Source: Rapana venosa
Taxonomy: Eukaryota > Mollusca > Gastropoda > Neogastropoda > Muricidae
Assembly: GCA_028751875.1 (NCBI GenBank)
Contig: CM054155.1
Coordinates: forward strand, 15,682,825 to 15,746,824
Reading direction: 5' to 3'
DNA: 64,000 bases
The notes below the pieces were generated by a model. The model saw nothing but the letters and a program-made list of their open reading frames with translations. It ran no database searches and had not been told where the DNA came from. Every line of letters begins with the position of its first letter. Position 1 is the first letter of the stretch. A program made the position numbers and the translations under genes. Shown here piece after piece: positions 696 through 54,481 of the stretch.

Positions 696-699
696 GAAT

Positions 700-23600: not shown

Positions 23601-23730
23601 TGGTAGGCCCCCAGCACCCCATTGGGCGGGGTGATTCTTTAGAAAATTTAACAACAGTCTCTGTTCAGGTGAGAGTGTACAAGACGCACACAGAGAAAGA
23701 GCAATAGTGGGTGGGTGGGTGGGTGGGTGA

Positions 23731-23775
<45 letters not shown>

Positions 23776-26700: not shown

Positions 26701-29700
26701 CATTCTGTGCTGCATCTAGTGTCCTCTTGTGTTTATTACAGGATAGCAAACAGTATTTTCTGAGGATCACATTTTTTGTTGTTTTTACTTTTTTTTTGCT
26801 TCTCTCATTTGCTTTTTACACCGTCAGATGTGTTTGGGAGAAATAATGGAATGTCCTTTCCAGTTCCTCTCGTGGGCTGTACATCTTGGTTTGCAGGGTT
26901 ATCTGCGTGTTTTTACTTCAGTGTCTCTTTTTTGCTTTCAAAGCCTCTTCTTCTGATTCAGATTTCCCCCTCTTTCATGTGGCCTCCTTCCTCACACCAC
27001 CCTAGGCTGATATGACAGAATATCAAAACTGACATTTGCTCCACACTGTCCAGTGTCAACTGTCTGTCTGCTGTATCTTCATAATACACACTCCTATATA
27101 TATTTCCAATCCGTCTATATCTTCATATAACACACTCCTAGAGGTTTTTAAATATTTCAAATCCACCCATATCTTAATAATACTCACTCCTACGCATACT
27201 ATTTCAAATCAGCCTTTCTCAGTCTGAAAAACAAGCTGGTAAAACGCAACAAAACTATTTTCAAAGATAGGAAATAAGGCTTATAGATTAAGATTACTTT
27301 TTATCCCAGTTCTCGACTAGAGCTCTGAGGTTCACCAATGGCTGGTCAGATGTATAAGTTTGTGACCAATCCATCCCCATCTCCCCTCCCCCCCCAACTA
27401 TAAAGGTAGCTGCACTTGGACTTTTGGGATACAGATTTAACCTACCCATTTTGTCACGACAATCGGGAGGTATGTCGCTTCTTTTTCTGATTTTTCAACT
27501 GTTGTGTGTTCTTTTGACACACACAAATCCCTTAGCACAAGGATCCAAATGTCTTAGTCTCTTCCAAAAGATTTGACATTCAGTTGATCTTTCCGTCAAA
27601 CTGGGAAGGTAAGGCATGGCTCGGAATTGGAACCCAGAAACCCGAAGTTTAATTGTTAGGCAGATGAACGTCTAAACTGTCCTGCCACGTTCCTTCTTCC
27701 ATAACTTTGTATAGACCTGATAATGATCAGAACTTGTGATGCCCCTATCCTGCAAAAAAAACCACCCAAAAACAACCCCAAACAAACAAAAAAAACCCTA
27801 GGCCCTTCTAAAATCTCAACATTTAAATCTAACTACTCTTTTTCTTCCTAAAGAGGAAATCATACTCAAAAAGTTAAAAAAGAAAAAAGGAAAAGCAGAA
27901 GTAAACAGGAAAAAAATGGATGGTACACACATCTGGATCAGCAAGAGGGAGATTTCTGTACTCTTGCACGATGGTTTTGAACCGAAGATCTTTCTCCATC
28001 ACCTTACACACTCCATACACCGAGCACATCAAGATCTGAAACACAGAGTGATTTTTTGTTATTGCTGTTTTTTCCCACAATAAATGTTAACTCCAGATGA
28101 TAAGCTATGTGCATCCCCCCCCCCCCCTCCACCATACACACACTTTCCAGTCTAATATCACTGTTTAGTGGAAGGACATTAACCTGAAGAACCAATCAAC
28201 ACAGAAGAAAATCATTTCTGCAGCCTTTTTCTATCAAATTCTTGTTATCACCCTGTACACCAAGATCTAAAGGACACAGTACATCACAATTCTATATCAA
28301 CTTCCTACATTTACTGAGCAATTCAAAACCTAAAATACATGATTCATAATAAAAAGATCTTTCTTTTCATTATGCACATCACACACAATAAGACTTGAAA
28401 TAAATAATACATCATGAAGTATCTCTTCAGAATGACGTACAGAATTTTTGACATTTTCCAGCAGTATCAATCCCTAACCATGAGCCTAACACTAACCACC
28501 AGCCTACCCCATCCACCATATAAAAGAATAAAATAAAATAAAAATTTTTTTAAAATCCAACCATGTTATCTGAAATGTAAGAACAGCAGAAGTGAAATAT
28601 TCATAGAACCGCTGAGGATGCGCTTGCTATACTTTCAGCCACGCACAAGACACAGCATAGGACTAGACAGATGGTATTTCTTTTTCTTCATCTGGAAATG
28701 CTTAATTTTTATTCCAGTCTGGATGGCAAAGTCTGCAGTCTGTCGTAGTGACCCTGCCAGTCCCCACTGTTTTTCCTGTCAGAGCTCTACTGGGCTGGGC
28801 CACGTCTGGTGTCAAGAGGTAATTTCAAATATATTGCGGCTTCTAATCCAAAAATCAGAACATTTATTTTTCATCTGATCATAATAAAAAATAAATCAAA
28901 AGAATGAATAAACATAATGAATCTGGATGTGGCTGTAGTTAAGGGATTGAAATGAGTGGTGCAAGAACATCCTGACAGGAATGTCACAGAAGATGAGGCA
29001 GCAAAAACAAAACCAAAAAAAAAGACGAAATAAATAAATGAAATAATAAAACAACAGGTACATTGTTGCTCTTTCCCACCTTACCTGATCTAAGTGTCTG
29101 TTTTTCAGGATGTCTGGTTTACAGCTGATGCAGTTCTCAAAACACGTCCAGATCTTGTGCAACTGCAGAAGAAGAAAAAAATGGAAAAATATACTCATGG
29201 GAAAAAATTGACTCCATGCTGAACACCTGACCATCAAAATCACGCAAGCGATCAAGAATGTACTTTTGGGGGCTTATCTTTTTTCTTTTGTTCCTCAGCT
29301 AGAGCTTCATGGTATACGAACATCCCCCCCCCCACACACACACCACCATTTAGATAGCTGCATTCCAACTTCAACTTGCTGGGTTCATTTTTGTCATCCG
29401 TTCCTACTGGCACACAACAAAATACTCTTCTGAAAGTCGGAACAGATTTTTAATGCCCAAGATGTTTTGTGTGGGTTTGCACATGGGGCCTCGGTTTATA
29501 GCCTGATCCAAAGGACTTTGACAATCAGTTCAATTTTTTTCCCATCAACCTGGGAAGGGCGAGGCTGGGAATCAAACCCAGACCCTCATGGTTTACTTTT
29601 TGGCAGGTGAAGTCTTAACCAATCTGCTACCCTTCTTCTTTCTTATCTTATGAATTCACCTGGATGCTTTTTAGTGGAGGGGGGAGGGGGGGGGGTCCTA

Positions 29701-32700
29701 CAGAAAACACAAGCCTCCATTACTCATCTTTCATTCAACTCTACCAGCAAACTGAACAAGTAAATGGATTCCTTGGCACCAAAGTACAGTATACATGTAT
29801 GTTTGTCCGTCGTGTTCGACGATGACCTCCAAAACAGCAGAGGAGGAAGCTGCTGTTTCGGAAATTGGGCAGAAATTTGATTATAGTGGAGATGCCTTGC
29901 CCACAGTACATTCCCACTCTCTCGGCCAAGTAGGCATAAGGACAGTCAGCATTGGAGATGTTCTCCAAAGGCCAACTAGCCCCCAGGGCTGCAGCACATA
30001 AGGACTGTGCAAGTAAAAAACAGTATACATGCACTGCTCCAAACACACTGACAACTCTTTGGAAAAACTTAACACTTCTACACAAGATTGAGATTTCCGG
30101 CACATCTTGTGTCACTTCCATAACGACAGATACTATAGCAGAGTGGTAAAGACTGTTCGACTTCAACCGTATGGGCCCATGAAGTCACGGATTCGAAACT
30201 CAGTGGTGTCTGGTGAATTAAGGGTGGGGATTTTTACAATCTCCCAGGTCAATTCAAGTACAGACCTGCTGGTGCCATAATTCCATGTGTATATACACAT
30301 GCAGAAGATCAAATACGCATGTTAAAGATCCCGTAATTCATGTCAGCATTCAGTGGGTTATGGAAACACAAACATACCCAGCATACATCCCTAAAGTCGG
30401 AATATACTACCTCCATGATGGGAAAAAATGACCGCACACGCAAAATCTCACCACTGCTGAACCCCTGCGATCTAGCCGAGGAACAAGGCGAAAAAAAATG
30501 TCTATCACAAATACACCATGACCAAAACTTATTTTTTAGAGGAAAAACCAGACAATTTTTGGACACACATAACAAACACCCTGCCCCCTCTCCCCTAAGG
30601 AAATGGTTTCCTCTGTAAACATTTTAGCAGATCTTCAAACGAGAGGTCTACAACTTACCAAATCCTTGTTGACTTGTAACAAAGTGCACAGTTTTTGAAG
30701 CCGGTGGTAAGCCAATCTGCACACTGAAAAAACAATAACAACATTTATAACTAAGCCAGAGGGCACATTGGATAGAATGCACAAGGCCTGGTCTTCTCCT
30801 GCACTTGTGACTCTGCAGAGGGCATATTGGATAGAATGCACAGTGCCTGGTCTTCTCCTGCACTTGTGACTCTGCAGAGGGCATATTGGATAGAATGCGT
30901 AAGGCCTGGTCTTCTCCTGCCTGGTCTTCTCCTGCGCTTGTGACTCTGCAGAGGACATATTGGATAGAATGCGTAAGGCCTGGTCTTCTCCTGCCCTTGT
31001 GACTCTGCAGAGGACATATTGGATAGAATGCGTAAGGCCTGGTCTTCTCCTGCCTGGTCTTCTCCTGCGCTTGTGACTCTGCAGAGGACATATTGGATAG
31101 AATGCGTAAGGCCTGGTCTTCTCCTACACTTGTGACTGCAGAGGGCATATTGGATAGAATGCGTAAGGCCTGGTCTTCTCCTACACTTGTGACTCTGCAG
31201 AGGACATATAGGATAGAATGCGTAAGGCCTGGTCTTCTCCTGCGCTTGTGACTGCAGAGGACATATTGGATAGAATGTGTAAGGCCTGGTCTTCTCCTGC
31301 GCTTGTGACTGCAGAGGACATATTGGATAGAATGCGTAAGGCCTGGTCTTCTCCTGCACTTGTCACTCTGCAGGAGGTCTGCCCACTGGCCTCAGCCAAC
31401 ACACTCTGACTTCAGGGCAGCTTGTTAAAAATTTCATGAGAAAAATGTTCAGACTTACTTGAAAAAAGGCAAGAGAATAATAAGCTGGGTAGGCAGAAAA
31501 TAAGCATGAGAGACAAGGGGTGGAGAGGAAAGGAAACGGCAGAAAGGACAACTCTCTTGTTGCTGTGGGTAAAATCTTTTACATGCGCTAAATGCATGTT
31601 AAACAGGGGACCCAAGTTTATTGTCTCATCCGAAAGACTAGCATCCAGACTACCACTCACGGTCTAGTGAATGGGGGAAAAGTTTCAGGCATAAACGGGG
31701 ATGGAACCTAGACCCTGATAAAACCTGGACAGACAGGTGTGTTACCTCTATACCATGGATTCACCATGAAGTGAGTGGTTTCCTCAAGCTTCTGTCCTTG
31801 CAAATCACCAATCCTTCTCTCCCCTTCTTTGCCCCCCCCCCCCCTCCCCCATGAGTGCTCTCCTCATCTATCAGTACTAGTAAACAGACAATTTAGACAA
31901 TGAGAACAAAGTTGACAGATACCTTTATTGGAAAAAAAAAAAAACCATACAAATTACAGATGACACAACCAAGTTGACAGATACCTTTGTTGAAAAATAG
32001 TGAACTTTGTTGAAAAAAAGCGAAAATTACAACGAGATTGAACAAAGTTCACAGATACCTTTGTTGAAAAATAGCGAACAAATTACAGACAACAAAGCTG
32101 ACAGATACCTTTGTTGAAAAATTTTGAACAGACAAAATACAGACGACAAGACTGAACAAAATTGCCAAATTTTAATACCTTTGTTGAAAAATGACGTCAG
32201 AGACTGGGATCGGCGAGGGGTGGCCATGGCCTTGGCAGGAGAGGTAGAAGGCGATTGGTTGTTTGTCATGTGACCTGCGTGACGTGGAGGAACTGGTGAC
32301 AGGAACCTAACATCCAAAAATAATAAAATCATGAGATGCCATTATGTGATTCTTTTCATTAACAAGACAGGAATACAGTACAAGATAAAAGCCATTACGT
32401 AATGAACATTCTTTCAGTTAAAACAAGAAAGGAATCCAGTAGATGTTCAACATTCGTTCACAGTCAACACCCAGAGGAATCTGGCAGGAGAATGGACAAA
32501 AGAGGCAGAAAATAGACAAACAGGAGGTGACAGGAAGAAAACGAACAAGGCAGAAACAAAGAGAGGGATAGAAAAGAGGGAATTCCTAGCACAGAAGGTT
32601 GGGATGCTATTTATAATGACAGGGACCCCTGGTATCCCAATGGGGGAACCTGCTACAACACACACACACCACACACACAACCAACACACACACCACACAC

Positions 32701-35700
32701 ACAAAACGCCTCCCACACACAACACCCCCCCCCCCCCACCACACACACACACACTACACACACACACCCCCCAAGACACACACAGACAACAAAAACAAAC
32801 TCACATCTGGGCAGCAGAGGGGTAGACAGGATTGTTGTTTGTGCTGGCCAAAGGGTCTGTGGGGGAATTTCTGGGTGGGGTGCTCTGTCCTCGGTCACAC
32901 ACCCTGATCACTTCAAACAAGGCCGAATCCTGCCGAACAACACCATCATCCATCACTCTATGTCACAGCCAAACCACAACTCAGATATTTACTGCGGACC
33001 TAATACGTAACCTTTCTGTACATTCTATCAGAAAAACTCCCATGAATTATGATAGGAAGGTTTCGTGCGAGTCTAAGACAAAATTTGTCATTTTCAACAA
33101 TGGATTTTATCAACATTTATACCCACACGTAAGTCTGAGACATGAAATTCGTAAATTTTCAACAATGCATTTTATCAACATAGATGTTACTGTTATGAAA
33201 CTCGATCCGCTGTAAAGCTAATGACTTACATGACAGGATGAAGCATTATTTCTTTTCATATGACAACAAAACTGCATCCTGCGTATCCCTGGACACATGC
33301 GCAAGAATGTAAATGGATAATTCCGTCAGGTGTTGCATTCCCTTACCTCTTTCCACGCAATGGACTCCAGAATCCTGTACTCAATATTCCGCAAATGCTG
33401 AAAAAGACAGTGCGACACATGAGTAAAATGATGACACACCTGACCATGAAGGTGATGCGTTACTTTCCAACCCTCACGCACTTTTTTGTAGTGCCAAAAA
33501 TCTAGCGCACACGTTAAAAACCTGTTATACCTTTTGGTAGAGTAGGCCATTTTGTGCCAGTAGGAACAGATGACAAAATAATTAAAAATAAAAAAACAAC
33601 AACAATAAACAACAACAAAAACGCATGCACTCAGGTGTTGTGTTTAGCCACTATCCCTGAAGTCAGAATGAAGCTACCTAAATAGTTTGGGGGGGGGGGG
33701 GGGGGGGGGGGGGGAACTGTCCCATACGCAAAAAATCTCACAAAAGATAAACCTAGGCGCTGTAGCTTAATAAACCACAACAAAACAAAAAAGAAAAACC
33801 AAGAAGAGAAAAAAAATTGATCAGTCCTCTTCAGCAACAAGTTAAAAAGAAGTTTTGACAGACACCATAGTCGAGTGGTTAACCTTTTTTTTTTCCCCCG
33901 ATGGGTAACCCCGCTATAGGGTAACCAACCATCTACTAACCCTTCCCTCCGTATCACCAGCCACTGGGTTACAGCAGCACACAAACGTGCACAGTACATG
34001 TGTACTGGGAAAAAGGGGCTGCTCTCTCCCTTAATGTAGTGTTAAAGACTGTTCGATTTGAATCCAAGCCCATGAGAAAGCACAAGAACATTAAAATGAA
34101 GATGACACATAAACCACCTGGAAACACCTGCCTGCCTGCCTGCCCGCCTACCTTGATCACGTCTCCAGGCAGCTTGGGTTCGGCTCTGATGAAGCTTTCC
34201 AGAACCTTGGAGAAGTCGTAGGCCTGTATGTGCAGGGTGTCCAGGATCCAGGGGAAGGCAAAGGGGGAGTCCTCCCCTTCGTTGCCACTCACCGCGTAGC
34301 TCCCTGCCAACCAATTTGTCAGTGTTCAACCACACTCAGTCAGTCTTCTTCTTAGTCTTCTTCTTCTTCGTTCACGGCGGTCAGTTTCCCCCACTTTCAG
34401 CAGTTATCGATCCCATCCCATCCCAGCTGGTAATAATTAATAATAATAATAATAATGTGTGGAATTTATGCAGCGCTGAATCTTTCTTGTAAAGCAACAA
34501 ATCAAAGCGCTCAGATTTTTATTTTTTTTTTTTAAATCGAGGATAATGGAATAAGCACTCGTGTGCTTTTTTACATCAATCCCTGTGTGTATGCGGTTTT
34601 GTAAATTTTGTCATCTGTTCCCACCGGTACACAATGACCTACTCTTTCGAAAAGCGGAACAGGATTTAACGAGTGTGCAAGATGTTCTGCATGCGTTCGC
34701 ACTAGGGGCCTCGGTTTATAGTCTCATCCGAAGGACTTAATTAGGTAGTAATTATAGCAGGAATTGACCACACTTGGGACTAGGTGAGTGGAAGGGGCGT
34801 GCTAAATTTAGCGTTCTTGACTAAGTGATGTTCGATTTGTGCGCTGTGCCTCGAACACTCAGATAGCAACCCTATTTTGTTGTTTATAGCCCTGCCCACT
34901 ACAGAGGCCATATCGGGGTTTTCACCTCCTAAACTTTTTAGCTTAGCAACTATTGTTGTCTGTCATATGAGTAAAATGCATTGCGTTGCTGTTAAGCCCC
35001 CGACAAGTCAGGCCCAACATATTCGATTTTGGTGTGGGAGAGAATTGTCATCTTTTAAGTCTTTCTGGGAAAAAAGGCAGGAGAATGGACCAAGAAGGCA
35101 GAAAAAAGACAAGGTGACAGGAAGAAAAGGAACAAAGCAGAAACAAAGAAGGGGGATAGAAAAGAGGGAATTCCTAGCACAGAATTCCCAGGTAGGGATG
35201 CTATTTAAATTGACAGACCCTCAGCATCACCAACGGGAGAAATCACATTCAGTGATCTAGGATTTTCAGTAAAGAGTACTGCATGAAAACTGAACATAAA
35301 ATGTTGTAAAAATCTTTCAAAAATGATACCCATATGTGGACATATTCACGAACCTGCACAAACACACATTGTGTATATGTGGACATATTCATGCACATAC
35401 ACAAGCACACAAACACTTGTTTGTATCTCTGGACATATTCAAGCACACACACACACACATTAGCACAAACACACGCGCACACACATTAGCACAAACACAC
35501 ACATCACACATTAGCACAAACACACACATTAGCACAAACACACACACATTAGCACAAACACACACATTAGCACAAACACACACACATTAGCACAAACACA
35601 CACATTAGCAACACACAACAAACACACAAACACAAACACACACATTAGCACAAACGCGCACACACATTAGCACAAACGCACACACACACATTAGCACAAA

Positions 35701-38700
35701 CGCACCACAACACACAAGCACAAACGCACAACACACACACATTAGCACAAACACACACACACATTAGCACAGACACACACACACATTAGCACAAACACAC
35801 ACACATATTAGCACAAACACACACACACACATTAAACACACACACACACACACACAGTCTCTCTCTCTCTCTCTTACTGGTCAGCCCATAAGCCACCAGC
35901 ACCACCTCCAGACAGCAGGCGATGAGGGAGGTGTGGAAATCGTCTTTGTTTAACAGCGTGTCCAACACGGCACCGACAGCCGCTTGCTGTCCTGTAACAC
36001 GCACACACACACACACACACACAGACATACACACACACACACACCAGAAACAGACATGATCATGGTTACCAGATTCTGAAAATAATAACATCAGAAAACA
36101 TTTTCCAGCAGAACTTGTTGCTAATTCCCACTCACCAACTATACATCTAACACTTTTGTTAATTCTGATCATACTTGTCAGTTTAACAATTAATAATCAG
36201 AAAACAGAATTCATGTAGCCCTGAATCTTGTTAAAGCAACAAACCAAAGTGTTTATTTACATTCAAATCATTTACATGTATGCAATCGTCCATGAATAAG
36301 ATGAACAGATACACACACATGTGCACAGGCACTGCAAGCTAAGGCAGGGTGATGGGGATGGGGGTAGCTGTTAAAGAGATGGATAGATTATGAGGGGGCA
36401 GATCTCAGGTAGTAAATAATGTGCTTTGAGGCTGCATTTTTAAGTATCAAATGTAGGCTTTTGGCGAAGAGATAGAGAGAGGTCAATCAGGTGATGGACC
36501 ACAAGTAGAGAAAGATCGATGGCCGACTGGTATATTTGAAATTTGGAGAAAACAAATAGCTGCACTGACACCATTCTACTATCAATCTACATGTTCAAAA
36601 TAAATCATTCATGCATAAGAGGACTTTTGAAAACACATCTAAAATGAAATTGAAATCAAAGTGCATACCGTTTTGGACGTTTTAACTTTCTGTTAGTGCA
36701 TCACCTCTTGTATGTGCATATGTGAACATAAGTACCTGAGTGAGCAAAATATTTCTCAACTGCTCATGCGCGCGTTTATGTGTGCATGCATTTTATTGTC
36801 TTTTTTTCCCATTTATTCTTTAATTTTGAGGATAATGGAATAAGCACTCATGCGCTTTTTACATCCAGTGCCCATGTGTATGCAGTTTTGTCAATTTTGT
36901 CATCTGTTCCCACCAGCACACAATGGCCTACTCTTCCAAAAAGAGGAACGTGTGCGCAAGATGTTTTGCATGTGTTTGTACACAGGACCTCGGTTTAAAG
37001 TCTCATCTGAAAGACTTGGGAGAAGTGGAGTCTGCACTGGTGTTAACTCATGTGTGTTTGTGTGTGTCTGCAAAGTGCATGTTTCCAGTACTTATTCTTC
37101 TTCAACTGTGATAGCAACAGATGAAACAATTTTTAAAGAGAAAAAACTATTTAAAAAAAATAAATAAATAAATACATAAAAGCTATTCAACTGGTGCTCA
37201 CTAAAGAAATTAAAAAAACAACTAAAACAGGCAAAAAGAAAGGACCACTATTCAACAAGCCCTTGCTAAATGAATAAAAACTGAAAAAATAATGGAGGCA
37301 ACACTCACTAAATGAATAGTAAAGGTAAAAGCGTCCCATAACTTACAAGGTCATAGGGTAGTGAGGCATCAGAGACCTCAACTTCTCCAGGGGCCAGCAT
37401 ATTGAGGGTGGCGCCCATCTCCTCTCCCTCGCTGCTTTACCTTCCCTGACCATAAAGAGGCAGGTACCCATTTACAGCTAAATGAATAAAAACTAAAAGA
37501 AAGAACGGACCACTTACACTATTGTACAGGAGCGTGCTAAATGAATAAAAACTGGGGGGAAATAACGGACCACTTACACTATTCCACAGGCCCTTGCTGC
37601 ATGAATAAAAACTGGATAAAAAAATTTTAAAAACCAACGGACCACTCACACTATTCAACAGGAGCTCCAACATGCGGTAGTACATCTTGACTCCCAACGT
37701 AAACCTCGGTTCTGCCACCGACTGACAAGGGGATGCCACCCTCACAAAACTGGACACAAACAACTCTTGCGTTCGCTTGACCCGTTCAGCAATGGCGCGG
37801 CCTGGGTTGTTGTTACAGATCTAAAACAGAACAGGTAAATATGATCAGTCTTTCTGTTGTTATAGATCTAAAATAGTAATAATAATAAATAATGTATGGA
37901 ATTTATATAGCGCTAAATCTTGTAAAGCAACAAATCAAAGCGCTTTTTTTTTTTTTATAATTAATACGTGTGTATGCAGTTTTTAAAATTTTGTCATCTG
38001 TTCCCACCGGCACACAATGGCCTACTCTTTCGAACAGCGGAACAGGGTTTAAAGTGTGCGCAAGATATTCTGCATGCGTTTGCACACGGGGACTCGATTT
38101 ATAGTCTCATCCAAAGGAAAACATAACAGGTAAATATCATCAGTCTTTCTGTTGTTACAGATCTAAAACAGAACAGGTAAACACCATCAGTCTTTCCTTT
38201 GTTACAGATCTAAAACAGAACAGGTAAATATCAGCCTTTCTTTCTTGCAGTCACATATTATTATCGAGTAATAAATACATTACACACATCTTTTGAGATT
38301 TTGTTTCTTTTCCAGCCATTCAAAATATTAAACCCCTAACAAACAAATAAACGAATGAAATTAAACTTTCCCAGAATGAATGATAAACACATGCATAAAA
38401 CAAACCATCCTCATATTCATCCATAACAAGCATTCTAACATCATTCAATTTCAATTTCCCATTTCCTCAAAGGTCAGAGTGTGATGTGACACTGCTATCA
38501 CTTTTTTTTTTTTTTAAACGCAAAAACACTTTTTTTTTCATTCCTCAGCTAGAGCTCAGAGGTTCACCAATGGTGAGATTTTGCGTATTTGACTGTTTTT
38601 ACCCACCATTAAGGTAGCTGCATTCTGACTTCAGGAACACTCTATTCTGATTTAGCATTCACATAACTTTAGCTCCCTTTTCTGGAACAAAATATATGTT

Positions 38701-41700
38701 CCATGTTTAAGATGTAAACCAATAACAAAATTTTTTTCAAACCACCAAAAACCCCACAACCGAAAAACAAAAACACACCAACCAATACTATCTGAACAAG
38801 CTGACCTGGAAGTAGTCAACCAACCAACCAATGACATCAAAGTTCACAAACACACTGACCTGGAAGTAGTCAACCAACCAACCACTGACATCAAAGTTCA
38901 CAAACACACTGACCTGGAAGTAGTCAACCAACCAACCAATGACATCAAAGTTCACAAACACACTGACCTGGAAGTAGTCAACCAACCAACCAATGACATC
39001 AAACTTCACAAACACACTGACCTGGAAGTAGTCAACCAACCAACCAATGACATCAAAGTTCACAAACAAGCTGACCTGGAAGTAGTCAACCAACCAACCA
39101 ATGACATCAAAGTTCACAAACACACTGACCTGGAAGTAGTCAACCAACCAACCAATGACATCAAAGTTCACAAACACACTGACCTGGAAGTAGTCTTGCA
39201 GGGTCTTGCTGGGTTCGTCAGCAGCCATGGCCAAGGTGCTCTTCAGCTGCTGAATGGAGTTCAACGTGGCTCTGAAACATCGTACTACACCATCACCATC
39301 AATATCCATCTACTTTTCTCTCCCATTCCACTAGTAATTCAATTCAATTCAAATACTTTATCACCTCAGCTTCTTCTTTGTCAAACGCTCAGCAACTATT
39401 ATTCTTTGTCATATGAGCAAAAACGTGTTGCGCTGCCCTTAAGCACCTGACAAGTCAGGCCCAGCACATCCGACTTCGGCATGGGAGAGAAAATCTTTTA
39501 AAGTCTTTCTGGAAAAAAGGCAGGAGAATGGACCAAGAAGGCAGAAAATAGACGAGAAAGAGGTGACAAGAAGGAACAAGGTAGAGACAAAGTGAGGGAT
39601 AGAAATGAGGAATTCCTAGCACAGAATTTCCAGAAGGTGGGGATGCTATTCATACTGACAGGCCCCCGGCATCCCCACGGGGATTATCATCTCACAAATA
39701 AGAGTTACAAGCCATACATAAAAATGGTACATAGAAAAAACATTTATCACAGAAAAATACCACAATACAGTATCTGCACATTGGCACACACACACATCAC
39801 AAGATAATTATAAATCCTCGCAGGTGATCTGGGAGTCAGGTCTTTCCCATTACAATGGGTCCTACATGCATTGTGTGAATGAAAAGGTTAACTTGTGATG
39901 AGTGTAAACTGGAGACAAATCTGGCAAACCAACTCCCTCCACCCCTCCAAAAAAAACAACCTCAACCCAGCAGCCAAACAAAAATAACAGTCTGAATAAC
40001 AATCACATACACCTCTAGACAAAAGGTATAGCAAAGGTAGCACTTTGTTATGACTTGGTCATTTCCACAGGAACAACAGCCTAAATTTCATACAGATTGA
40101 TCTACTGTGACTATACATGCAATGCTATATAACATATCCACCTATGAAATCAACTTTTCGATTTTAAGATTAACCTAGGCACAGTGAAAAATGGTAATAC
40201 CAAAACACTACAAAGCAGACACAAGTATGCACACACAAACACAACATATATACATCTGTCTGATATTACTTTCGAGTGGATCGACGTTAAAATGAAGACA
40301 CACAGACACAGACACAAACACACACAGCAGACACAATAACACAGACACAAACACACACATACAAACATACACACACACTTATGAAATTTGAAATAGAATG
40401 GAGTCACTACAAATCATTATTTCTAGTCACACTAAGGACAGCTAAACCATCAGGAAGCACACAGCTTCGGATGACAAAAACACCCAATTCTAGAGAACAT
40501 TAATTCATAAACAAACTTTATTTTAAAAGGTTGGGGGAGAGAAGGTATCTGACAAACCTTTCTTGTATCTTTTGTATGGCATAGTATGTAAATGGTTAAC
40601 TGTATAAAATGCCTATGTTTGTGTAAATATATATGTATGTACATATGTATGTAGATATGTACTTATGTATGTTCGCATGCATATATTTCCGTTATGTACA
40701 ATATTGATGTGCATTCATGAACATACACCTGCAAATGGTTCACGTTTATTGTTACTGATAATGTTTGTTATGCATATATATGTATTTGCAACAGCAAAAT
40801 GAATTAAAAATTTTTTTTTTTTTTAAATACACACACACACGCACAGACAAACACACACACACACACAAACACACACACAAAGAGACAGACACACACACAC
40901 ACACACAGAGACAGACAAACACACACACACTTACCTGACAGGAGTCATGGGTGGCTGCATGGAGTGTGTCTGACTGCACTGAAGACTTGTACCATTGCTA
41001 TTGCTGCTGCTGCTGCCAGTGCTAGAGGGGAACAGTTATTACAGGCGTCAGTCTGGACGTGACAACAGGTGTATAAGCTGACTGTGGTAAGAGTGTGTAT
41101 GCGTGTGTGTGTGCGTGTGCGTGAGAGAGAGAGTGTGTGTGTATGTTTTTTGTAAATTATTTTATTATGTTGATAATGGAATAGGCTCTCATGTGCTTTT
41201 TTACATCTAGTACCCATGTGTATGCAGTTTTGTAAATTTTGTCATCCGTGCCTACTCTTCCAAAAAGTGGAATGGGTTTTAACAGTGCGCAAGATGTTCT
41301 GCATGGGTATGCACAAGGAACCTCAGTTTATAGTCTCATCCAAAGGACTTTTGGGGAGAGTGGAGTCGGCACTGATGTTAACTCCTGAGAAAAAATCCTC
41401 TTGAACGAGATTCAAACCCAGGTGAGCAGATCACAAGCGCATCACTCTAACCACCAGGCTATCTCCTGTGTGTGTATGTGTGTGCGCGCACACGCGTGCA
41501 TGTGTAAGAGAACGATGGAATGTGAGAGTGAGTGAGTGTGCGTTCGCGCACACGCATGTGCATGCACTCACACATGCATGCATGCATGTGTGTGTGTAAG
41601 AGAAAGTGTGAAAGTTGTGTGTGAGTGTGTATAAGTGTGTGTGCATGCGTACATTCATTATGAAATCACACTTAATGCAAACTTAATGCATTACAAAATC

Positions 41701-44700
41701 ACACTTAATGCAAACATACCTTAGGTTCTATGTCTCACCTGGCAAACACAATAATAATCTTTTGCTTTTAGCACATTTACGCTCATAAATATAACACTTT
41801 CAGCATACGTTCATGAAGGAAGATGGCAGGACAGTTAAGACGTTCACCTGCCTAACTAGTAATCCATAAGGTTCTGGGTTTGATTCCCAGCCTTGCCCTT
41901 TCTTCCCAGTTAAAACAAAAAATCAAATTGAATGTCAAAGTCCTTCCAATGAGACTATAAATTGAGGCCCCAAGTGCGGATGCATGCAGAACATCTTACA
42001 CACACATTAAAAACCTGTTTTGCCTTTTGGAAGAGTAGGCCATTTCATGCTGGTAGGAACAAGTATGAACACACAGTTGAGCTGATCATGAATTAGTGGT
42101 TTCTGATAAACATGTATGTGCAAGAGCATACGCATGCAAAGTTGATGATCTGAAGTCTGTAGCTAGTACCAATAGACTGCGCTGGTTTGGGCACGTTCAA
42201 CGGAAAGCAGACCACCACATCATAAAAAGAGCAATGAACTTCGTAGTGGATGGAAAGAGACCAAAGGGAAGACCTAGCAAGACCTGGGCTGCCTGTATTG
42301 CAGATGATCTTAGAGAAAGGGGCATAAAATTTTATAAGGAGGAAGCTCAAAACAGAGAGAGGTGGAGAAGGCTCATCAATGTCAAACCTCCATTGGAAGA
42401 AACATGACAAAAAAGGAAGGAGAAGAAGAAGAGAACACACACTACAGGCATCACACAGCCCCCACCTACCTGTGTTCGTTGGAGGGGAAGAACAGGGGGT
42501 CTTTGGAGAGGAAGAGAAGTTCGTTGAGGTCTCCTTCGCTTGCGTGCTGCTTCAGGTAACTCTCCTCCAAACAGTCTACCTGTTCACACCACCTTTCTGT
42601 CATAGGTGTTTCACTTTCAAAGAAGTTTTTTCAAATCATGTTCACAGATGTTTTACTTTCAAAGAAGTTTTTCAAATTATGTTCACAGATGTTTTACTTT
42701 CAAAGTTTTTCAAATCATGTTCACAGATGTTTTACTTTCAAAGAAGTTTTTTCAAATCATGTTCACAGATGTTTTACTTTCAAAGAAGTTTTTTTCAAAT
42801 CATGTTCACAGATGTTTTACTTTCAAAGAAGTTTTTTCAAATCATGTTCACAGATGTTTTACTTTCAAAGAAATTTTTCAAATCATGTTACAGATGTTTC
42901 ACTTTCAAAGAAGTTTTTCAAATCATGTTCACAGATGTTTCACTTTCAAAGAAGTTGTTCAAATCATGTTCACAGATGTTTTACTTTCAAAGAAGTTTTT
43001 CAAATCATGTTCACAGATGTTTCACTTTCAAAGAAGTTTTTCAAATCATGTTCACAGATGTTTCACTTTCAAAGGAGAAAGAAAAATGCTTGTACTGCTA
43101 CCCTGTTGTTGTTGTGCGTTCCCCAGCTTTACACCCTGGGGGTCACCCAGAACGTGCACTCTGACTCACTCATCCCACCTGGGAATCACTGTGAGATAGA
43201 AAGTACACCGGGTGAGAAGTTTGCGTGTATGACTCTTTTCAAGTACCTCGCCACATAGGCAGCCATACTCCGACTTCAGAGGATTTTTTTCTCCTATAAA
43301 GGAGAGTGCAGGTTGTTATGTTAAGAGCTTGTCATGGCTGAAGGCAATCTCAACACATTTTAAACATAACAACATTTTAATGTAGGCCTTGGCAATTAGC
43401 TGACATCAATAACCTGACACAGCTTTTGGCCTGGGCCAAACTGCTACCCTTATTCTTAGGGTTTTTACATTTTTCGGTGGCGAGATTTTGACTATACAAC
43501 CAGTTTTGCCCACCATTAAGGTAGCCGCATGCCGACTTCGGGGATGATGTCTAAACACGACACCAGTATGCATGAGCTCTGTAAATTTTGTCATCCACTC
43601 CCACACAATGGCCTACTCTTCCAGTAAGCACTGTGAAGGAAGGTGGCAGGATGGTTAAGACGTTTGCCTGCCAACAAGTAAACCGTGAGGTTCTGGGTTC
43701 GATTCCCCGCCTCGCCCTTTCTTCCCAGTTTGACAAAAAATCAAAGTCCTTCGGATGAGACTATAAACCGAGGCCCCGTGTGCGAACGCATGCAGAACAT
43801 CTTGCGCACACGTTAAATCCTGTCCGCTGTTCGAAAGAGTAGGCCATTGTGTGCCGGTGGGAACAGATGACATTTTTTTAAAAACCCGCATACACACGCA
43901 AAAAAAAAGAAAAAAAAAAAGGGGTCACCTGAGCGCATTGATTTGTTGCTTTACAAGATTCAGCGCTATATAAATTCCATACATTATTATTATTATTAAG
44001 CGGAATGGGTCTTAGAGTGCACACAAGATGTTATACATGCGTCCCCACACAGTACCTCAGTTTATAGTCTCATCCAAAGGACTTTTGGGAGAGTGTGGTC
44101 ATCACTGATGTTAACTCCATGGGAAAAAAATCCCCTTGAACGGGTGTCTCGGTGGTACCTGTAACCTGGGATTGATCCTGGGCCGTCACACCACAAGCCC
44201 AATGCTCTAACCACCAGGCCCCCAAACTCTGTGTATGAAAAGCGTTGAGGAACAGCCAACAGCACTGTCTCACTCACATCCAGCTCTCCGTCTCTGTTGA
44301 GAAGCTCCCGGAAAAGTGGCTCCAAGCATCTCCTGCACATGTCCTCTGTCTGCACACAAATAATGAATGACAATATAAAACAACAATTTCCAGACACAGC
44401 GAATCTGAATCAGGGCTATAAATCGAGAAAAGGAGAAAGGGAAAAACTACTATAATCCGTTGTTGCTGAGAACAACTTGGAGCCTTGTGTTTCTGGGTGC
44501 AGAGTAGCAAGTTTTGGGGGGGGGATGTTCATGCCTCACCTAGAGCTCGAAGGTTCACCAATGGTGAGATTTTTGCACATGCTACTGTCCCGCACGCACC
44601 CCCCCCCACCCACCCCTGCCAGCCACCATATTTAGGTAGCTGTATTCTGATTTTGGGGACATGTCTAAACACAACACCTGTGTGTATGCAATTTTTGTTG

Positions 44701-45263
44701 TTGTTGCTTTTTGTCATCCATTCCTACTGGTACACAATGGCCTACTCTTCTGAAAGGTGGAATGGATTTTTAACGCGTGCGCAAGATGTTCTGCGTGCAC
44801 ACACACACAGCCTTGATTTATAGTCTTTTACGAATGACTCTGACATTCAGTTTGATTTTTTCGTCAAACTGGGCAGAAAGAAAGGGCGAGGCTGGGAACT
44901 GAACCCAGAAGCTCACAGTTTACATGTCAGCAGGCAAACGACTTAACAATTCCGCCACCTTCTTTCTTGGTTGGTGGCAAGTTAACATGTTAAAATTTTT
45001 CAAAAATCTGTTTAAGGCACTCCTGCCTTCCTAATTTTCTGGAAATCAACTTTTTTTTTTTTTTTTACACTTTTCTCTGTATAAGTGTATGTATGAGCGG
45101 TGCTATGTGCATCTGCAGATTTGTGTGCTTTTCTGAACAAAATATAATGTATGTTCTGTACTTGTGTGTGAGAATGCACAGTGTATATTCTACTTCAGTT
45201 TATGTCTCTTCACAAACTGTGATATTACACAAATATTTGTATATATGCAAATGTGTTTGAGAA

Positions 45264-45336
<73 letters not shown>

Positions 45337-47788
45337 GAGAGAGAGAGCAAGCAAAGACAAGTCAGTTAGCTCACCTCTTCCTGGTTTGCCTCAAACTGTT
45401 CACACAGTTTGGCCAACATGGACATTCCACTGAACTCCAACATCTGCTGGCACCCTATCCGAATCACATCTGCGCGCATGCACACACACACACCAGAAAC
45501 TTTAACCATCTTACATTCACAAATGCAGCTGAAAATTTTTCAAACTGGTACATAATTTTTCATATATTTACCGACAAATTTTTAAGCACACACAGCACCA
45601 CAGACAGTCAATGAACTGGTACAGCTACACATTGTAATAATTTTTTAAAGAAAATAAAAATCCTGCTATATGGCTAAAATAAGAATGAAAAGCAAGATAC
45701 AGTATTGGAATGTGGGATGTAAATATATGAACTCACTAAAAAGGGCATTTTCCTCTCTAAATTCTTAAAAAAGTATTAACTTCAGACAACAGAGTGGCTA
45801 CTGTATAAAGATTACTGATGCCTGGTACAGTTTAGTAGATAACCCTGAACAGAAAATTCATAACATGCTAGAAATGTCTGGCAATGGTGAGAAAATGAAA
45901 GACCTGGGTTTTTGTCTTTTTAAAAAATATATATCTAAATTAAAACTAACCTCACCGAGACTAGCTACACAAAATCATGCCAGTTTCACGTCATAAAACA
46001 GAGCAAAAGTGAAATGAAGACAGACATCAGTGACCCATTACAAAATGACTGCCAGGTACATATTTATCCATAATTTGCAAAACTTCCTTTCAAATAAATG
46101 CTGATACTTTTTTTTTGTTCCTAAGGACAGCTCTGGGGTTCACCAAGGGCGAGATTTTGCATATGCAACCATTCTTGCCCATCATGAAGGTAGCTGCATT
46201 CCGACTTTGGGGATGCTGATACTTTTAAAGCAGGGCGAGTATAGCTAAGTGGTCAGAATGCTGAACTATGATCTTATGGTATGTGAAAGCGCAGGTTCAA
46301 ATTTCTGCTGGTGTGTCCGTCCATTTAAGAAAAAAAAAATTTTTCTTAAAGTTAACACCGATTCTGACTCCACTCCCCTACAAGTCCTTCAGAGGACACT
46401 ACAAAACTGGGGTCCCATAAACATCCTTCTTTCACACAATAATGCAGAAGGCCACTATGGCCAGTGGTGTGGATGGCAAAAAATGGTCACAGCAGGGATA
46501 GAATCTGCTAACTTGTCCATACCACACTGCTAGGTAAAAAAATATTACAGTGCACCATTAACTTACTCTCCATGGAGAAGTCAACTTTCAAAACAAGTCA
46601 CAGGAAATTCACAATTAGTACAACTGGCACTATAGCCAAGTGGTTTTAAGCCAGTTCAACTTCAATTCTAAGGGTCCATGAAGTCGTGGGTTCGAATCTC
46701 GGCAGCATCTGGTGAATTAAGGGTGGGGATTTTCACAATGTCCCGGGTCAACTTCCAACAAACAACAGACCTGCCAGTGCCTTAATTCTCATCTATGTAT
46801 ACATATTATATACACATGCAGAAGACAAAATATGCATGTTAAAGGTCCTGTAACTGATGTCATCGTTCGGTGGGTTATGGAAACACGAACATACCCAGCG
46901 TACATCCCTGAAGTCGGAATGCGGCTACCTTCATGGAAGGCAAAAAACACAAAATCTCACAACTGATGAACCTTTTCTTTCTTTTTTCGTTTATATCGAG
47001 GATAATGGAATAAGCACTTGTGTGCTTTTTTACATCCAGTCCCCATGTGTATGCGGTTTTGTAAATTTTGTTATCTGTTCCCACACAATGGCCTACTCTT
47101 ACGAAAAGCGGAACAGGATTTAACATGTGCGCAAGATGTTCTGCATGTGTTCGCACATGGGGCCTCAGTTTAAAGTCTCCTCCGAAGAGCTCTAGTCACA
47201 TAAAAGCAACAACTAAAAACAATTAGTACACACGATGCAATATTCGATCATGTCAAGGAACTGACCATATGGAGAATTCAGGAGAAAGGAAGGGGTGGAC
47301 CTCATGACATACTCCAGGCAGCAAAGCAGGGCCAGAAACCCATGCAACAGATCCAAGTTATCTCCCATCAGTCGCTCTGCAAATGTAATGGACCATACCT
47401 TAGCCATATGACTTGTGGCGTAATCTGGCATTCTGTTTTGGAATTTTTACAATTCTAAGGTGTGTTTGCTGTTGGTAGTACTTTTGAGAGCAGAGGGGGA
47501 ATGGGGGATGGGAAGGGGGGGGAGCGGAGAGGGGGAAAGAGAGAGAACTCAAATGATTTATTCACAAAAAGGCCATTGGCCCATAATTGCATAAAGGGGG
47601 TTGCCGAACTGCTTAGAATTTTAGTGGGGAAAAACAAGGGAAAGCATGAACAACAAAATCAAAATGTTATTGTATAAAAACCACCACAACAAAAACCACT
47701 TACAAAAATATGACTAAAGAAACCAAGATATGAGAGAGAGAGAGAGAGGAGAAGAGAGAGAGACAGAGGAGGAGAGAGAGAGAGTGAG

Positions 47789-47819
<31 letters not shown>

Positions 47820-50800
47820 GAAAATGAGTATGTGCAAGCAATACTTCTATGCTTACAGGAATGCTCATATGTGGCACATTCATGCAAACGCACAAGTGCA
47901 GGGTGTTGTCTTTTTACTTAAGATTTTCTACATGATCTGATAAGGTATATTTCTATCACAATTCTTCCCTTTCAAAAATGGCAGCCAATAGGTCAGACCC
48001 CTACTGCCTACTCACACAATGGGAGCAGGTCTGTATATTCAGACTCAGAGCAGGTCACAACTGCCTGAACTATCATATGTACATATAACTCCACACAGGC
48101 CACACAGAGCAGTGCCCTTGCAAGACTGGCAGCAGCCAGACAACAGAACCTGTGCTGCAGTCCTGCCCGCTATATGAGGCACTCCAAAAGATCTGACCTG
48201 ACCCCAGTGGCCAAGAAGCTCTATGGAGACTGAGAGAGAGGACCTGCAGCATACAGCTGTCTTTGTCACAGTGATGGTGCTATCTATCTGACAATTTTTT
48301 TGTTAAAATTAAGAAAAAGGCAGTTTATTCGAGATAACATGAAAATGTTCTAGAAAAACCCACTAAAAACAAAACAAAAAAACCCACCATGAAACAGTCT
48401 GAACAAATGAAGGATTAGTTGAGTGTATGGCAATCACACAGACAATGATACAAAAAAAGAGGAGAAAACATAAGTCAAAAAAAAAAAAAGTAAAATCAAT
48501 AACATCACTGCAAAAAGTGTTTTTTTTAAAGAAAAAAAAAGACTGACATAACATAAATAAAAGAGAAATAATAAGCAGGCTAAATTCAAAGACATACACA
48601 GAGATGAAAAAAAATAACGAGAAAGCAATGTAGAGCATAATAAAGAAAAGCACTGCATCTCATACAATGTTCTAAAACGCTGATACTCACTTTTTGCATG
48701 TACAAACAGCAGCCAACACATCTTTTTTCTGAAGGCCACTCCCTCTGTCTCTGGCAGTGTAGGAACAATGTTCTCCCTGCACAAAAAACACAACTACATG
48801 AAGATTTCTCTGACATTCAGAGCAAATCAGTGTGACATTTAGGATGTTTTCTTCAAATACACAAACCTACCCTTCTCTTTCAGTATTCAACTCGGAGGGG
48901 GTTACTGTGTTGGAAGAAACAAAAATCCACCAGCCCACCCCGCCCCCCCTCTTTTTTTTTCAAGACCACACACACACATATCTCACACACACCTCTCCTC
49001 TCTTTCTCACTCACACATACCTCTCATTCACTCACACACACACACAATGAAAGTTTACACACACACAAAATGAATCCACAAAGCAAGCGCGCACGCACGC
49101 ACACACACACACATCCTAGAAATTTCAAAGAATTGTCATTTTACAGAATACCTTTGAAAATATAGTAATCAGTGTTCAGCTCAATCCGTAACAAACAAAA
49201 CAAAATGATTACAGCCCCCTTTGATCTAATGGCGGCAAACACACACACAAAGTAAAAGAGAAAAAGCAAAACAGAATATGGGGAAGATGCACTAACACCT
49301 AGTACAAATGTTGCTGGATGGACAGTTACTGCATTATGAAAACATGTCACACATCAGCCTATTGGAAACACAGGCCTGAAAAGCACTGTCCAGCCAGCCT
49401 CTTTCCTTCCATATCTTTAGAAAATACAGTGATCGTCTGATCAAGCCCTAAGCCATGAACTTCAAAGTGAAACCAAAACTGGCTATGCTCCAGCCATGGA
49501 GAGTGCACTTCTCATTTATCTTTACAACCCAATACATTTATGTATGCATTTTACACATTTTTTGAAGAATAAATTTGGTCACTGGCCTCATTTTTTTCCC
49601 TTTTCCCAAGCGCAAACTTTTTACAAACCACCATTATGTCGATCTATACTGTGCACAGCTACGCCTGCGCATAAATCAACAGCTATTTTATAGTAAAGTT
49701 GCGCCAAAATGAACGTACCACTGATAGTAATTGGTTTAGTGCCATAAACGAGAAATTCATTATCAGGCTAAAGTTCTTTTGAACACATGATCCACATCAC
49801 ACAAATCCAGTGTAACTCAGTCAAAGGCCCAAGCCCAGTGCTAAATATAGCGCGCCCCTTCCTTTAACCAAGTATACATGCAGTCAGTTCCTGCTATAAT
49901 TAGCACCAGCTGGGCTGGGATGGAATGGATAGTAGCTGAGAGAAGCTGAAAGTAGGGAGAACGGACAGCTGCGGATCGTACTTTCATAGTTTTATATAAC
50001 TTTTCATAGAAACTACAGGTAAATCAGAGTGGTAGGCAGGACTAAAGCGACACATACATTGCCAGCAAAGATGAGGGAGGAAGGGGAATGATGTCAGCCA
50101 GTTTCTGGTGAACTTATTCAGAATTTTCTAGTATACTTTCTGAATACTCACTCATTGGCTTCCATGTCAGGTTTTTCTTCTTCTCTGAACACGCCATTAC
50201 ACAACCTGTCCAAAAGAAAAAGAAAATATGAAGATTTGTAAAATGAGCACACAACCTGTCCAAAAGAAAAAGAAAATATGAAGATTTGTAAAATGAGCTC
50301 ACATACATATAAATCTTACTATTTCTCAACACAAAAAAATTGTAAAATGAACTTATAATAATACATGGAATTTATATAGCGCTATATCTTGCAACAAAAC
50401 AAATCAAACCACTTTCATTCATCCTAGTCATTCACATGCAGCCAGTTACAATTAATAGGATTTTTTTTTTTTACAAGTTCAAATGTATACACACACTCGC
50501 ACACACACATGCACATCCACACAAAGGTTTACTCTCACTTTTTTTTAAATTAAAAAAAACAACAAAATGGTGGTTTTTTTCACCCCAAAAGAACAGAAAG
50601 TAAAATAACTACTTAAAAAGGAAAAGATACATGGCAAATTATATCGTATGATAAAATCCTTAAAAATATTTGCCGTCACATTTACATTATGGAAGTCTTT
50701 CACAGCACTTATTTTACATGTCCTACTAAATAGTGAGTTTACAAAGCCTGTTTCACTCAGGGTTTTTTAAAACTGTCTTCACACACACATACACACACAC

Positions 50801-53800
50801 ATACACACACATACACACACACAGAGGCATGTGATTTTATTCATTAAAAAACCAAACATGAAAAAGACAAGGAAAATCTAGGCATGAAATACCCTAGATC
50901 CTACCAAGGACCATACGAGGGAAAGGAGGAGAAAGTTTCTTTACGACTTTTCAGGTCTTTGAACATAAGCTTGATAGTTGTTTAAATTCATTCAATTTTT
51001 TTCCCCGCAGAAAACTTATCCTTGAGAAAAGGAAGAATACCAGGCCCTATCTAATCATAAATCACAAAATGATATATTTCCCCCTTAAAATAGCTAACAC
51101 ACAAAGCTTACAGACGAGCTGTCAAGACTGGAAACAAAACACAGTTGATAAAAACACACAACAGATACATAAACAGAATTTCAAACACACGCGCAAAACA
51201 CACATGCAAAACACATACACACAACATAAAAATTTTTTACTACAAGCAGGCCTCACCGATCAAAGGTGTGAGACAGAGCACACATGACGCAGAAGTTTCT
51301 TTCCAGAGATGTCAGGTGTTGTGTAACGGCTTCCGACAGCAGTATCATGTCCTTCACCTGTCGCATTTTCTGCAGCAACTGCTTCACACTGAAAATGAAA
51401 CACCACTGTCAGGATCTGACATTTCACACAGCTGACTATTAATGGGTGGATTCCCTGAAGTTGGAAAGTGGCTACCTTCATGGTGGGCAAAAGCTGTCAC
51501 ATATAATGATATATGCAAAATCTCAACATTGATGAATCTCGGAGCTCTGAGAAGTAGAAAAAAGAGGGGGATGGATATCCATGCATGTGAACAAATCAGC
51601 ATTGAGCTTGAATGTTGGGTTACAACAACAACAACAAAATAATAATAATAAAGAGTTTCTATAGCACCTGACCTAATAAATTTATTAAAAAAAGCTTTAG
51701 GTGTTCACAAAACATTTGCTCGCAAAGGAAGAAAAAAAAGCAGATTCCAGAACAGCCTTGACATACTAGATAAGTACTCAAGAGTTGTTTATAATTTGCT
51801 TAGGTTTCATTTTGTTTTGATACTGTTACTTTTATGTTCCTGGGCTAGAGCTCCCAGGTTCACCAATGGTGAGATTTTGCATATCTGACCATGTTTTGTT
51901 TGTTTCTTTGTTTTTAAACCGACCATTAAGGTAGCCACATTCTGACTTTGGGGATGGTGTCTAAACAGGACATCTGTGTGCACACATTTTAAAATTTTTT
52001 ATCATCCATTCCTGCTGGCATGCAAAAGGCCTACTCTTCCAAAAGACAGAACGAGTTTTTAACCTGTGTGCAAGATGTTCGTGCATTCACACACAGAGCT
52101 TAAGTTTATAGTCTCATCCAAAGGACTATTTCAAAGTTTAAGTTGGATGTGAAAGAAACGAGAAATTTTCTTTTTCACAATCTCTTTCATTTGTCATTAT
52201 TTTGTATCGCTAATAATATTTTCAAAAAGTACTTAACCCTTACCTCCTTGAAGGGTTTTTGGGGAACTGCATTCAATTTTCTGTCAGTCTTAAATTTACA
52301 AACTACACCTGGAGAAGACCATCCCTCCCCAGGTAGCAGGTGATTGCTGGGTATGTTTGTAATATCCATGCCACTGGCCATAGATGGCCTACTCTTCTAC
52401 AAAAGCGGGAAGGGCCTTAAATACAAGTGCATGACAATCTATGTGCATTTGAATATCAGATCTTGAATAATGGTCTGATCTCTATTTTTTTAATGTTCCG
52501 AGGTTAGAACTCCGAGGTTCACCAACGGTGAGATTTTTGTGTATGTAACCGTTTCCCCCAACACACACACATACACCATTTAGGTAGCCACATTCTGACT
52601 TCGGGGATATGGTCTGCTCTGAAGGATGTTCTTCAGGGAGTGGAGTCAGTACCCAAGATGACTCTAGGAGGAAGTACCCTCGAATCAGCTACTTAAGACT
52701 TGAACCAGCACCTTCTGTTACTGTCAAATCAAGATTTCAACCCTCTAACCACTAAACTATTCTGCCCCATGCAAAATATTGTTCATCCTCATTAATACTT
52801 GTCGATACTTCTTCTTCTTCTTAGAACACTCAGACAGTAAAAATTATGGTCTGTCACAGGAGCGAAAATGTGCATCCGACTTCAGCGTGGGAAAGATTTG
52901 TCTTTCTCAAAAAAAACGGCAGGACAATGGACAAAGAAGGCAGAAAACAGACAAGAAGGAGGTGACAAGAAGAAAAGAAACAAGGCAGGAACAAAGAGAG
53001 GAACAGACAAGAGGGAATTCCAAGCACAGAATTTTCAGAACGTGGGGATCCTAATAATACTGACAGGCCCCTGGCATCTACACAGGGAGGGCTGTTAGTC
53101 AATAAAAACGTGCTGCCTCCAGTTTCCCCTCCTTACCTTGTATTGGACTTCTGCAATAGCTGAGTGACAGTGACAGGTGGAATAGCCAGGTAACCGTGCT
53201 TCAGCTGTGGATCATCGGGGCCATATGGCATCCTGCAGGTAAAACAGGGGGAGGGGAAGTGACAATTATTCACCATCCTGTCTGTACAGGTAGTGAAAAC
53301 TTAAGGTCATTATGCTTATTCTACAGGGTCTAATAAATAATTATGTTACTGAAAAATAACAAAATTTGAAGAATACACACATACTATGTGTGCATACACT
53401 CACTCACATTATTCTCAGGGGTATAATGTTATTGCAAAATAACAAACTTTAAGAAAACACACACTCACTAAGATCAGGTAATGTGTAATTTAAGAAAAAA
53501 TGGTACTCTGAAATACTTCAAATAGCTGTCAGAAATTAATACTATAAAATAGCCATGGGCTACCTGTATTGCAGATGATCTTAGAGTTAGAGAAAGGGGC
53601 ATGAATAAGGAGGAAGCTCAAAACAGAGCTAGATGGAGAAGGATCATCAATGTCAAACCTCCCCTGGGAGAAACACGACAAAAGAGGAGGAAGAAGAAGA
53701 AAACAGCCATGGGAACCAATTAGGATTCTAAACACAAGAAACTGAAACGGCAGTCTTAAAATAGGAATCCAGAGGATGCCACTGGCATTTTTGAAGGGGG

Positions 53801-54399
53801 TCCCAGGCGTATAGATGTAGTGGGTGTAATGTGTGTGTGCACATGCATGCATATATGACTGTGTGCTCTTTATCTGACTGACTTTGTGCACATTGACCAT
53901 TAAGGTGATTTACAAACTCGTTACTCTGAAAATAAAGAAGGGGAGGGGTGAAGGGGGAGTTGAAAAAGCAACTTTTCGAATATTCAGGAGTCCAAAGGTA
54001 AATTTCATATATGGCATAAGATACTATCAATATCATACTGAACATCTTTAATATTGCCACATAATGTGACATATATATCTCCCTTTGTCTACTCATTATG
54101 TTCAATCCTTTGTTTTTGTCAAAATACTGAGCACTGGTTGAGTAAATCATACGATTAAACAGTAGGAACAGCACAACAAGCACAAGTAACATTTTTGGAA
54201 CACTTGAACCAGTTGAAACATTCTCAAGTGAAATTTATAGCTAATTATTTTGTGTTCTGTGGACAAAACACAAGTTCTCAAGTTGAATCAAAAACAACAA
54301 CAAAACATACACAGAGTTTTAAAGAAGAACTTACTCTGTGTGTGTGTGTGTGTGAAGTTGTGAGAGAGTGAGAGCGAGAGAGAGAGAGGAGAGAGAGAG

Positions 54400-54481
<82 letters not shown>

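Follow-up and report, generated by a model that had tools for sequence, protein, structure and literature searches.

Tandem repeats that run across exon-intron boundaries have been described in amphioxus under the name of 'mirages', where splicing is reported to stay normal (PMC3087553). The genes concerned are Adh3 and the globin genes BflGb6 and BflGb9, to which troponin C and PGBD5 were added in a second study (PMC3902484). Related situations have been described elsewhere: the minisatellite of the human gene IFI6 (6-16) supplies multiple splice donors (Turri et al. 1995, as cited in PMC4526556), segmentally duplicated genes in humans have internal tandem repeats where exons meet introns (PMC2812944), and a tandem duplication that crossed a boundary created a new intron in the potato RdRp gene (PMC4974935). 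Here we analyze a stretch of 64,000 nucleotides from the 2.28 Gb genome of the gastropod Rapana venosa (C22:15682825-15746824, referred to as the window), which carries the gene RB1 on its reverse strand. At five exon edges of RB1 the adjoining intron holds tandem copies of the splice junction. An initial annotation of the window held that no class of such arrays had been described; this was wrong, as the arrays belong to the same class as the amphioxus mirages (PMC3087553, PMC3902484). The snail arrays are therefore a known kind of array in a new phylum. The RB1 arrays are probably mirage-type minisatellites that are tolerated in a minisatellite-rich genome, with no need for a dedicated machinery or a function.

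The RB1 exons were located by tblastn with the RB1 proteins of four relatives, three of them from Littorina, Nucella, and Pomacea, and the exon edges were set from splice signals and phase. The RB1 relatives are gastropod. This resulted in 26 mapped exons separated by 25 introns, all 25 of which have GT-AG ends. The RB1 of Littorina saxatilis is 56% identical to the whole draft RB1 and that of Nucella lapillus is 74% identical across 67% of it. The mapped exons are intact with the exception of a single base in exon 15 (window 35878-35991), which has one base fewer than in the relatives, so that the frame shifts there; the joined exons are translated without a stop before exon 15. Either an error in the assembly or a genuine change may account for the missing base. 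The public N. lapillus RB1 model starts a short way upstream of exon 14, which looks like a failure of gene prediction around the exon 13-14 intron; in the window this intron has arrays at both of its ends.

Each RB1 array was dissected using the junction sequence as the query, and the resulting features are listed in Table 1. The alignments confirmed tandem splice-junction copies at the five edges named in the initial annotation, i.e. the acceptors of exons 6 and 14 and the donors of exons 13, 14, and 19, and its exon numbering agrees with the mapped gene model. Donor and acceptor boundaries are occupied alike, each intronic unit contains the splice site together with up to 7-16 exon bases, and when scored the copies at both kinds of boundary were found to retain their splice signals. 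At the exon 13 donor, seven additional copies follow at 54-bp steps with an exon part of at most 12 nt and 97% matches according to Tandem Repeats Finder (TRF). The exon 14 acceptor has copies at -47, -342, and -389 with an exon part of up to 13 nt, and the donor of the same exon has copies at +72 (12 exon nt) and +132 (16 exon nt). The exon 6 acceptor has a single extra copy at -50, with an exon part of 5 nt by alignment and 7 nt by TRF, and the exon 19 donor has diverged copies at +70, +120, +194, and +256 that form an irregular array missed by TRF. The copies described in the initial annotation are thus present, but their number at exon 6 is low and the spacing at the exon 14 and exon 19 donors is irregular.

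The view that the arrays arose as independent events was borne out, as the unit sequences differ between the RB1 edges and the exon 13 unit is confined to its own locus (6/6 matches in a search of the 2.28 Gb genome in which very common words were skipped). These observations also bear on the possibility that mobile or introner-like elements were inserted at splice sites, which would account for the location of the arrays at intron ends. An introner-like element family consists of near-identical sequences dispersed across many introns. The units at the snail junctions, however, differ from edge to edge and contain the bases of the local exon, and the exon 13 unit, the one unit searched genome-wide, has no match away from its own locus in that search, which passed over very common words; an introner-like family is disfavored and we consider inserted elements to be a very improbable origin. 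The same can be said of an assembly artefact. The base missing from exon 15 means that there is at least one possible assembly error, but the exon 19 copies are diverged, the exon 14 acceptor array is broken by a dispersed repeat, and different units are found at ten edges across six genes. The dispersed repeat that splits the exon 14 acceptor array is 250 bp in length and has 19 blastn matches in the window (itself and 18 others) as well as 29 on another contig, within a stretch of 100 kb. To the extent that the assembly can show, the arrays are real, and an artefact has very little to recommend it.

The number of arrays in RB1 is high, and the remaining genome sample shows the same phenomenon at a lower rate. 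This sample, for which 288 kb of the genome were analyzed in addition to the window, comprised six CCT genes, an RB-like paralogue (RBL), and the DDX3-like gene that lies left of RB1. The RBL exons were located by tblastn with fish RBL1, the CCT genes were picked by family search, and an exon finder trained on RB1 and RBL was used, with edges checked for GT/AG. When applied to RB1 itself, 17/17 predictions fell on true exons and 14 of the 26 exons were exact. The predictions at C6:48392992-48393113, C33:1330020-1330124 and 1334539-1334617, C19:34624324-34624371, and C14:5491754-5491788 were excluded as false or unsupported, as were two RBL predictions without a tblastn match, hidden Markov model (HMM) hits without a usable predicted exon, and a few exons of the gene to the right of RB1. 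In the C29 gene, the array located 43 bp upstream of the first mapped exon was not counted, being outside the introns considered. One exon end in the C6 gene was adjusted by eye, and approximate edges were retained for RBL exon 36341-36403 (no clear acceptor) and for the donor of the second DDX3-like exon (uncertain).

These eight genes contain 134 edges and 41 arrays, five of which span a junction. The spanning arrays are located at the acceptor of the eleventh mapped exon of RBL (p107-like), at a DDX3-like exon donor (15 copies), at acceptors of the CCT genes on C33 and C19, and at a CCT3-like exon donor (C14:5494762-5495547), where a 26-bp unit with a GTAAGT donor is present in about 31 copies. 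With RB1 included, a spanning array is found in six of the nine sampled genes (RB1, RBL, the DDX3-like gene, and three of the six CCT genes), and the CCT genes on C29, C6, and C5 have none. The TRF array load of RB1 (5276 of 35523 intron bp) is like that of the other genes (14001 of 103356 intron bp), and about 14% of the sampled intron bases lie in TRF arrays. In the RBL gene, which is on C10, the distance to the closest exon edge is 146-165 bp for 5 of the 12 arrays, an apparently tight spread.

The initial annotation raised two further points, that junctions are captured by arrays more often than expected by chance and that either a shared junction mechanism or the harmlessness of decoy sites may lie behind this. 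The first is supported when arrays are counted as events in the eight other genes. With P values that are indicative only, as the endpoint of the sampling was the analyst's choice, 5 of the 41 arrays span a junction where 1.43 are expected by placement (P 0.014) or 1.84 by seed-unit count (P 0.04), 12 of the 41 lie within 50 bp of an edge where 4.81 are expected (P 0.0017), and 5 lie within 15 bp where 2.45 are expected (P 0.10). The initial pool of seven other genes gave 3 spanning arrays out of 32 against 1.1 expected, which is not significant (P 0.10); two stretches were added after this result and had been selected from the family hits before their arrays were seen. The RBL gene alone has no excess within 35 bp of an edge (1 of 12 arrays, 1.1 expected). 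In RB1, 7 of the 10 TRF arrays are no more than 35 bp from an edge compared to 0.94 expected from random intronic placement (P 0.0001), and the same proportion lies within 50 bp (1.2 expected); since RB1 was chosen post hoc for its striking look, this excess cannot stand alone. The five spanning arrays of the other genes are all TRF calls, and three of the five in RB1 were missed by TRF or ended off the edge. By TRF alone, 2 of the 10 RB1 arrays are at a junction (0.36 expected, P 0.045).

The claim that junctions are captured more often than by chance is not supported when counted by position. In a second test, the presence of a copy near a 44-base window was compared between edges and random intronic windows. 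In RB1 a spanning copy was found at 5/50 edges and a nearby copy for 117/797 control windows, and in seven other genes the figures were 5/114 edges and 188/1723 control windows; edges were no richer in either comparison. Two of the latter five edges, both in RBL, are marginal (scores of 18 and 19) and were excluded from all other counts. The controls were searched on both sides and the edges on the intron side only, which favors the controls, and long arrays weigh heavily in this test; for these reasons the arrays were also counted as events. Dispersed repeats are a further influence, as in 8 of 9 genes they are scarcer within 100 bp of an edge than deeper in the intron, and this avoidance would be partly responsible for the crowding of arrays at edges. 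When the dispersed repeats were cut out, 7 of the 10 RB1 arrays were within 35 bp of an edge compared to 1.45 expected, and the two RB1 TRF arrays at a junction were no longer significant (0.55 expected, P 0.11); the repeat mask was built from 352 kb only and is incomplete, so the true expectations are higher. Repeat avoidance was rejected as the full cause of the crowding. It accounts for part of it, and the excess persists after the incomplete masking.

An alternative is that exon edges are hot spots for the birth of minisatellites, where breaks, R-loops, or nucleosome edges seed duplications, some of which include the junction. The excess within 50 bp of edges in the eight genes and in RB1 is in line with this, as is its survival after partial masking. 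However, RBL taken alone lacks the excess, repeat avoidance explains a portion of it under a mask that is incomplete, and the distances of the 51 arrays to the nearest edge (8 at 0 bp or less, 11 at 1-35 bp, and 9 at 36-100 bp) have no clear peak at the junction, and we regard a hot spot as a rather unlikely source of the RB1 arrays. The broader statement that exon edges are such a hot spot throughout the genome, with several per cent of splice junctions inside arrays, is offered as a tentative possibility; if true, it would provide a standing supply of duplicated splice sites for new introns, shifted sites, and isoforms. The spanning arrays grade into the near-edge arrays and look like the near end of a general crowding at exon edges, and no dedicated junction mechanism is indicated.

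Neutral tolerance is the best explanation for most of the observed arrays. Short tandem duplications, whose units measure 26-75 bp in the arrays at junctions, arise often in this genome, as the TRF coverage given above shows. A duplication that crosses an exon edge leaves the extra copy and its splice site within the intron. Splicing would continue at the site closest to the exon, which is the first donor or the last acceptor, so that the copies would be tolerated as decoys. The array could then expand or shrink through slippage or unequal exchange. Duplications with more than about 17 exon bases would be eliminated, probably owing to competition for splicing from decoys that include a longer stretch of exon. 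RB1 would look extreme as a result of its high array load, the general crowding at edges, and the fact that the gene was noticed for it.

The length limit itself was observed in all ten spanning arrays, in which the exon part does not exceed 17 nt, and no longer exon piece was found in the flanking intron of 101 exons (900 bp on each side, local score of 34, low complexity excluded). Even placement of seeds across junctions would make longer exon parts common, so the limit suggests selection against copies with more exon sequence and hints at the conditions under which a duplicated junction can be tolerated.

The copies would fit the idea of harmless decoys, but several results weigh against neutral tolerance. 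Splice sites were scored with a simple weight matrix, and the authentic ones do not stand out by their strength. At exon 13 the authentic donor scores 4.49 and its copies 4.49 (five) or 2.97 (two), at exon 14 the authentic donor scores 2.67 and the one scored copy 2.85, and at exon 19 the authentic donor scores 0.21 compared to 1.73 for each of the four copies. The decoy donors of exons 14 and 19 therefore score no worse than the authentic ones and their harmlessness is not obvious. Additionally, the spanning arrays of RB1 number five where 0.45 are expected, and after removal of the dispersed repeats the eight other genes still have 12 of their 41 arrays no more than 35 bp from an edge, compared to an expectation of 5.2 under the incomplete mask (P 0.003).

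The retention of splice signals in the copies could also mean that the arrays are functional, by supplying alternative sets of donors or acceptors through which RB1 isoforms are varied or exon definition is protected. IFI6 provides a precedent, as far as it is summarized in PMC4526556, and the exon 13 copies are near-identical donors at 54-bp spacing with a reading frame that is open throughout, as is the exon 14 donor region. An open frame of 18 codons in one unit is unremarkable, however, and the frame would be shifted by the length of the exon 6 copy, two of the three exon 14 acceptor copies, and three of the four exon 19 copies. The aligned RB1 proteins of the relatives have no added peptide at these junctions (the Nucella model starting at about exon 14), and unrelated housekeeping genes hold similar arrays. 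We consider a function for the arrays to be improbable, and neutral tolerance is the reading retained here.

Other arrays in the window stop short of the junction or lie away from it. Three RB1 arrays end 11-33 bp before an acceptor without reaching it, and the 59 copies of the 44-bp unit in one of them take up 2.6 kb of RB1 intron 22. At window 20-712 there are about 26 acceptor-like 26-bp units, which end in CCTTCACAG or similar; this array is inside the last intron of the neighboring DDX3-like gene and away from any edge.

Table 1. Window coordinates of RB1, its junction-spanning arrays, and other arrays near its exon edges.
Feature	Position	Strand	Junction or basis
RB1, exons 1-26 (last exon unmapped)	19726..57883	-	tblastn of RB1 proteins and splice signals
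Exon 6 acceptor array, 50-bp unit, 2.1 copies	50199..50303	-	junction 50205/50206
Exon 13 donor array, 54-bp unit, authentic site and 7 copies	38795..39195	-	junction 39184/39183
Exon 14 acceptor array, proximal part, junction of next copy at -47	37808..37867	-	junction 37820/37821
Exon 14 acceptor array, distal part, 47-bp acceptor copies, at most 13 exon nt	38118..38241	-	
Dispersed repeat within exon 14 acceptor array	37868..38117	.	blastn
Exon 14 donor array, irregular	37488..37665	-	junction 37650/37649
Exon 19 donor array, four degenerate copies, 14 exon nt	31917..32192	-	junction 32179/32178
Non-spanning 41-bp array, 20 bp upstream of the acceptor of exon 11 (exon start at 42579)	42600..43077	-	
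57/59/74-bp array, 33 bp upstream of exon 20 acceptor, non-spanning	30757..31377	-	
44-bp array, 59 copies, 11 bp upstream of exon 23 acceptor, non-spanning	23962..26533	-	
CA-rich array, best period 22 bp, 23 bp from exon 15 donor, non-spanning	35357..35854	-	

Among the matches listed in a limited literature search, in which one paper on an abalone intron minisatellite was examined, no description of mirages in molluscs was recognized. The human segmentally duplicated genes resemble the snail genes in having minisatellites at exon-intron boundaries, but they are recent paralogues, often with altered transcripts and new introns (PMC2812944), whereas the snail genes are conserved and have intact exons except for the base in RB1 exon 15. 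The potato RdRp duplication (PMC4974935) crosses a boundary as the snail duplications do, but the snail shows no new exon or intron; the snail arrays are nevertheless a testable supply line for intron gain via tandem duplication. Every tandem unit of the IFI6 minisatellite provides a splice donor, as in the snail, and according to the summary in PMC4526556 the downstream units serve as donors in IFI6, whereas the snail copies are known from sequence alone. The snail arrays constitute a natural test of how the spliceosome chooses among near-identical sites.

The closest likeness is to the amphioxus mirages, which are boundary-spanning, minisatellite-like units at 5' and 3' boundaries of several genes with AG or GT in many copies. 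Unit length is 26-75 bp in the snail, compared to 10-72 bp in Adh3 and 150-160 bp in the globin genes of amphioxus. For the amphioxus mirages, undisturbed splicing and unstable length have been reported, whereas the snail arrays are known from the sequence of one assembly. The snail differs further in being a mollusc and in having five arrays in one gene. In the papers found here mirages are reported for amphioxus, and their presence in six of nine sampled genes of a mollusc suggests that they are a more general outcome of minisatellite-rich genomes.

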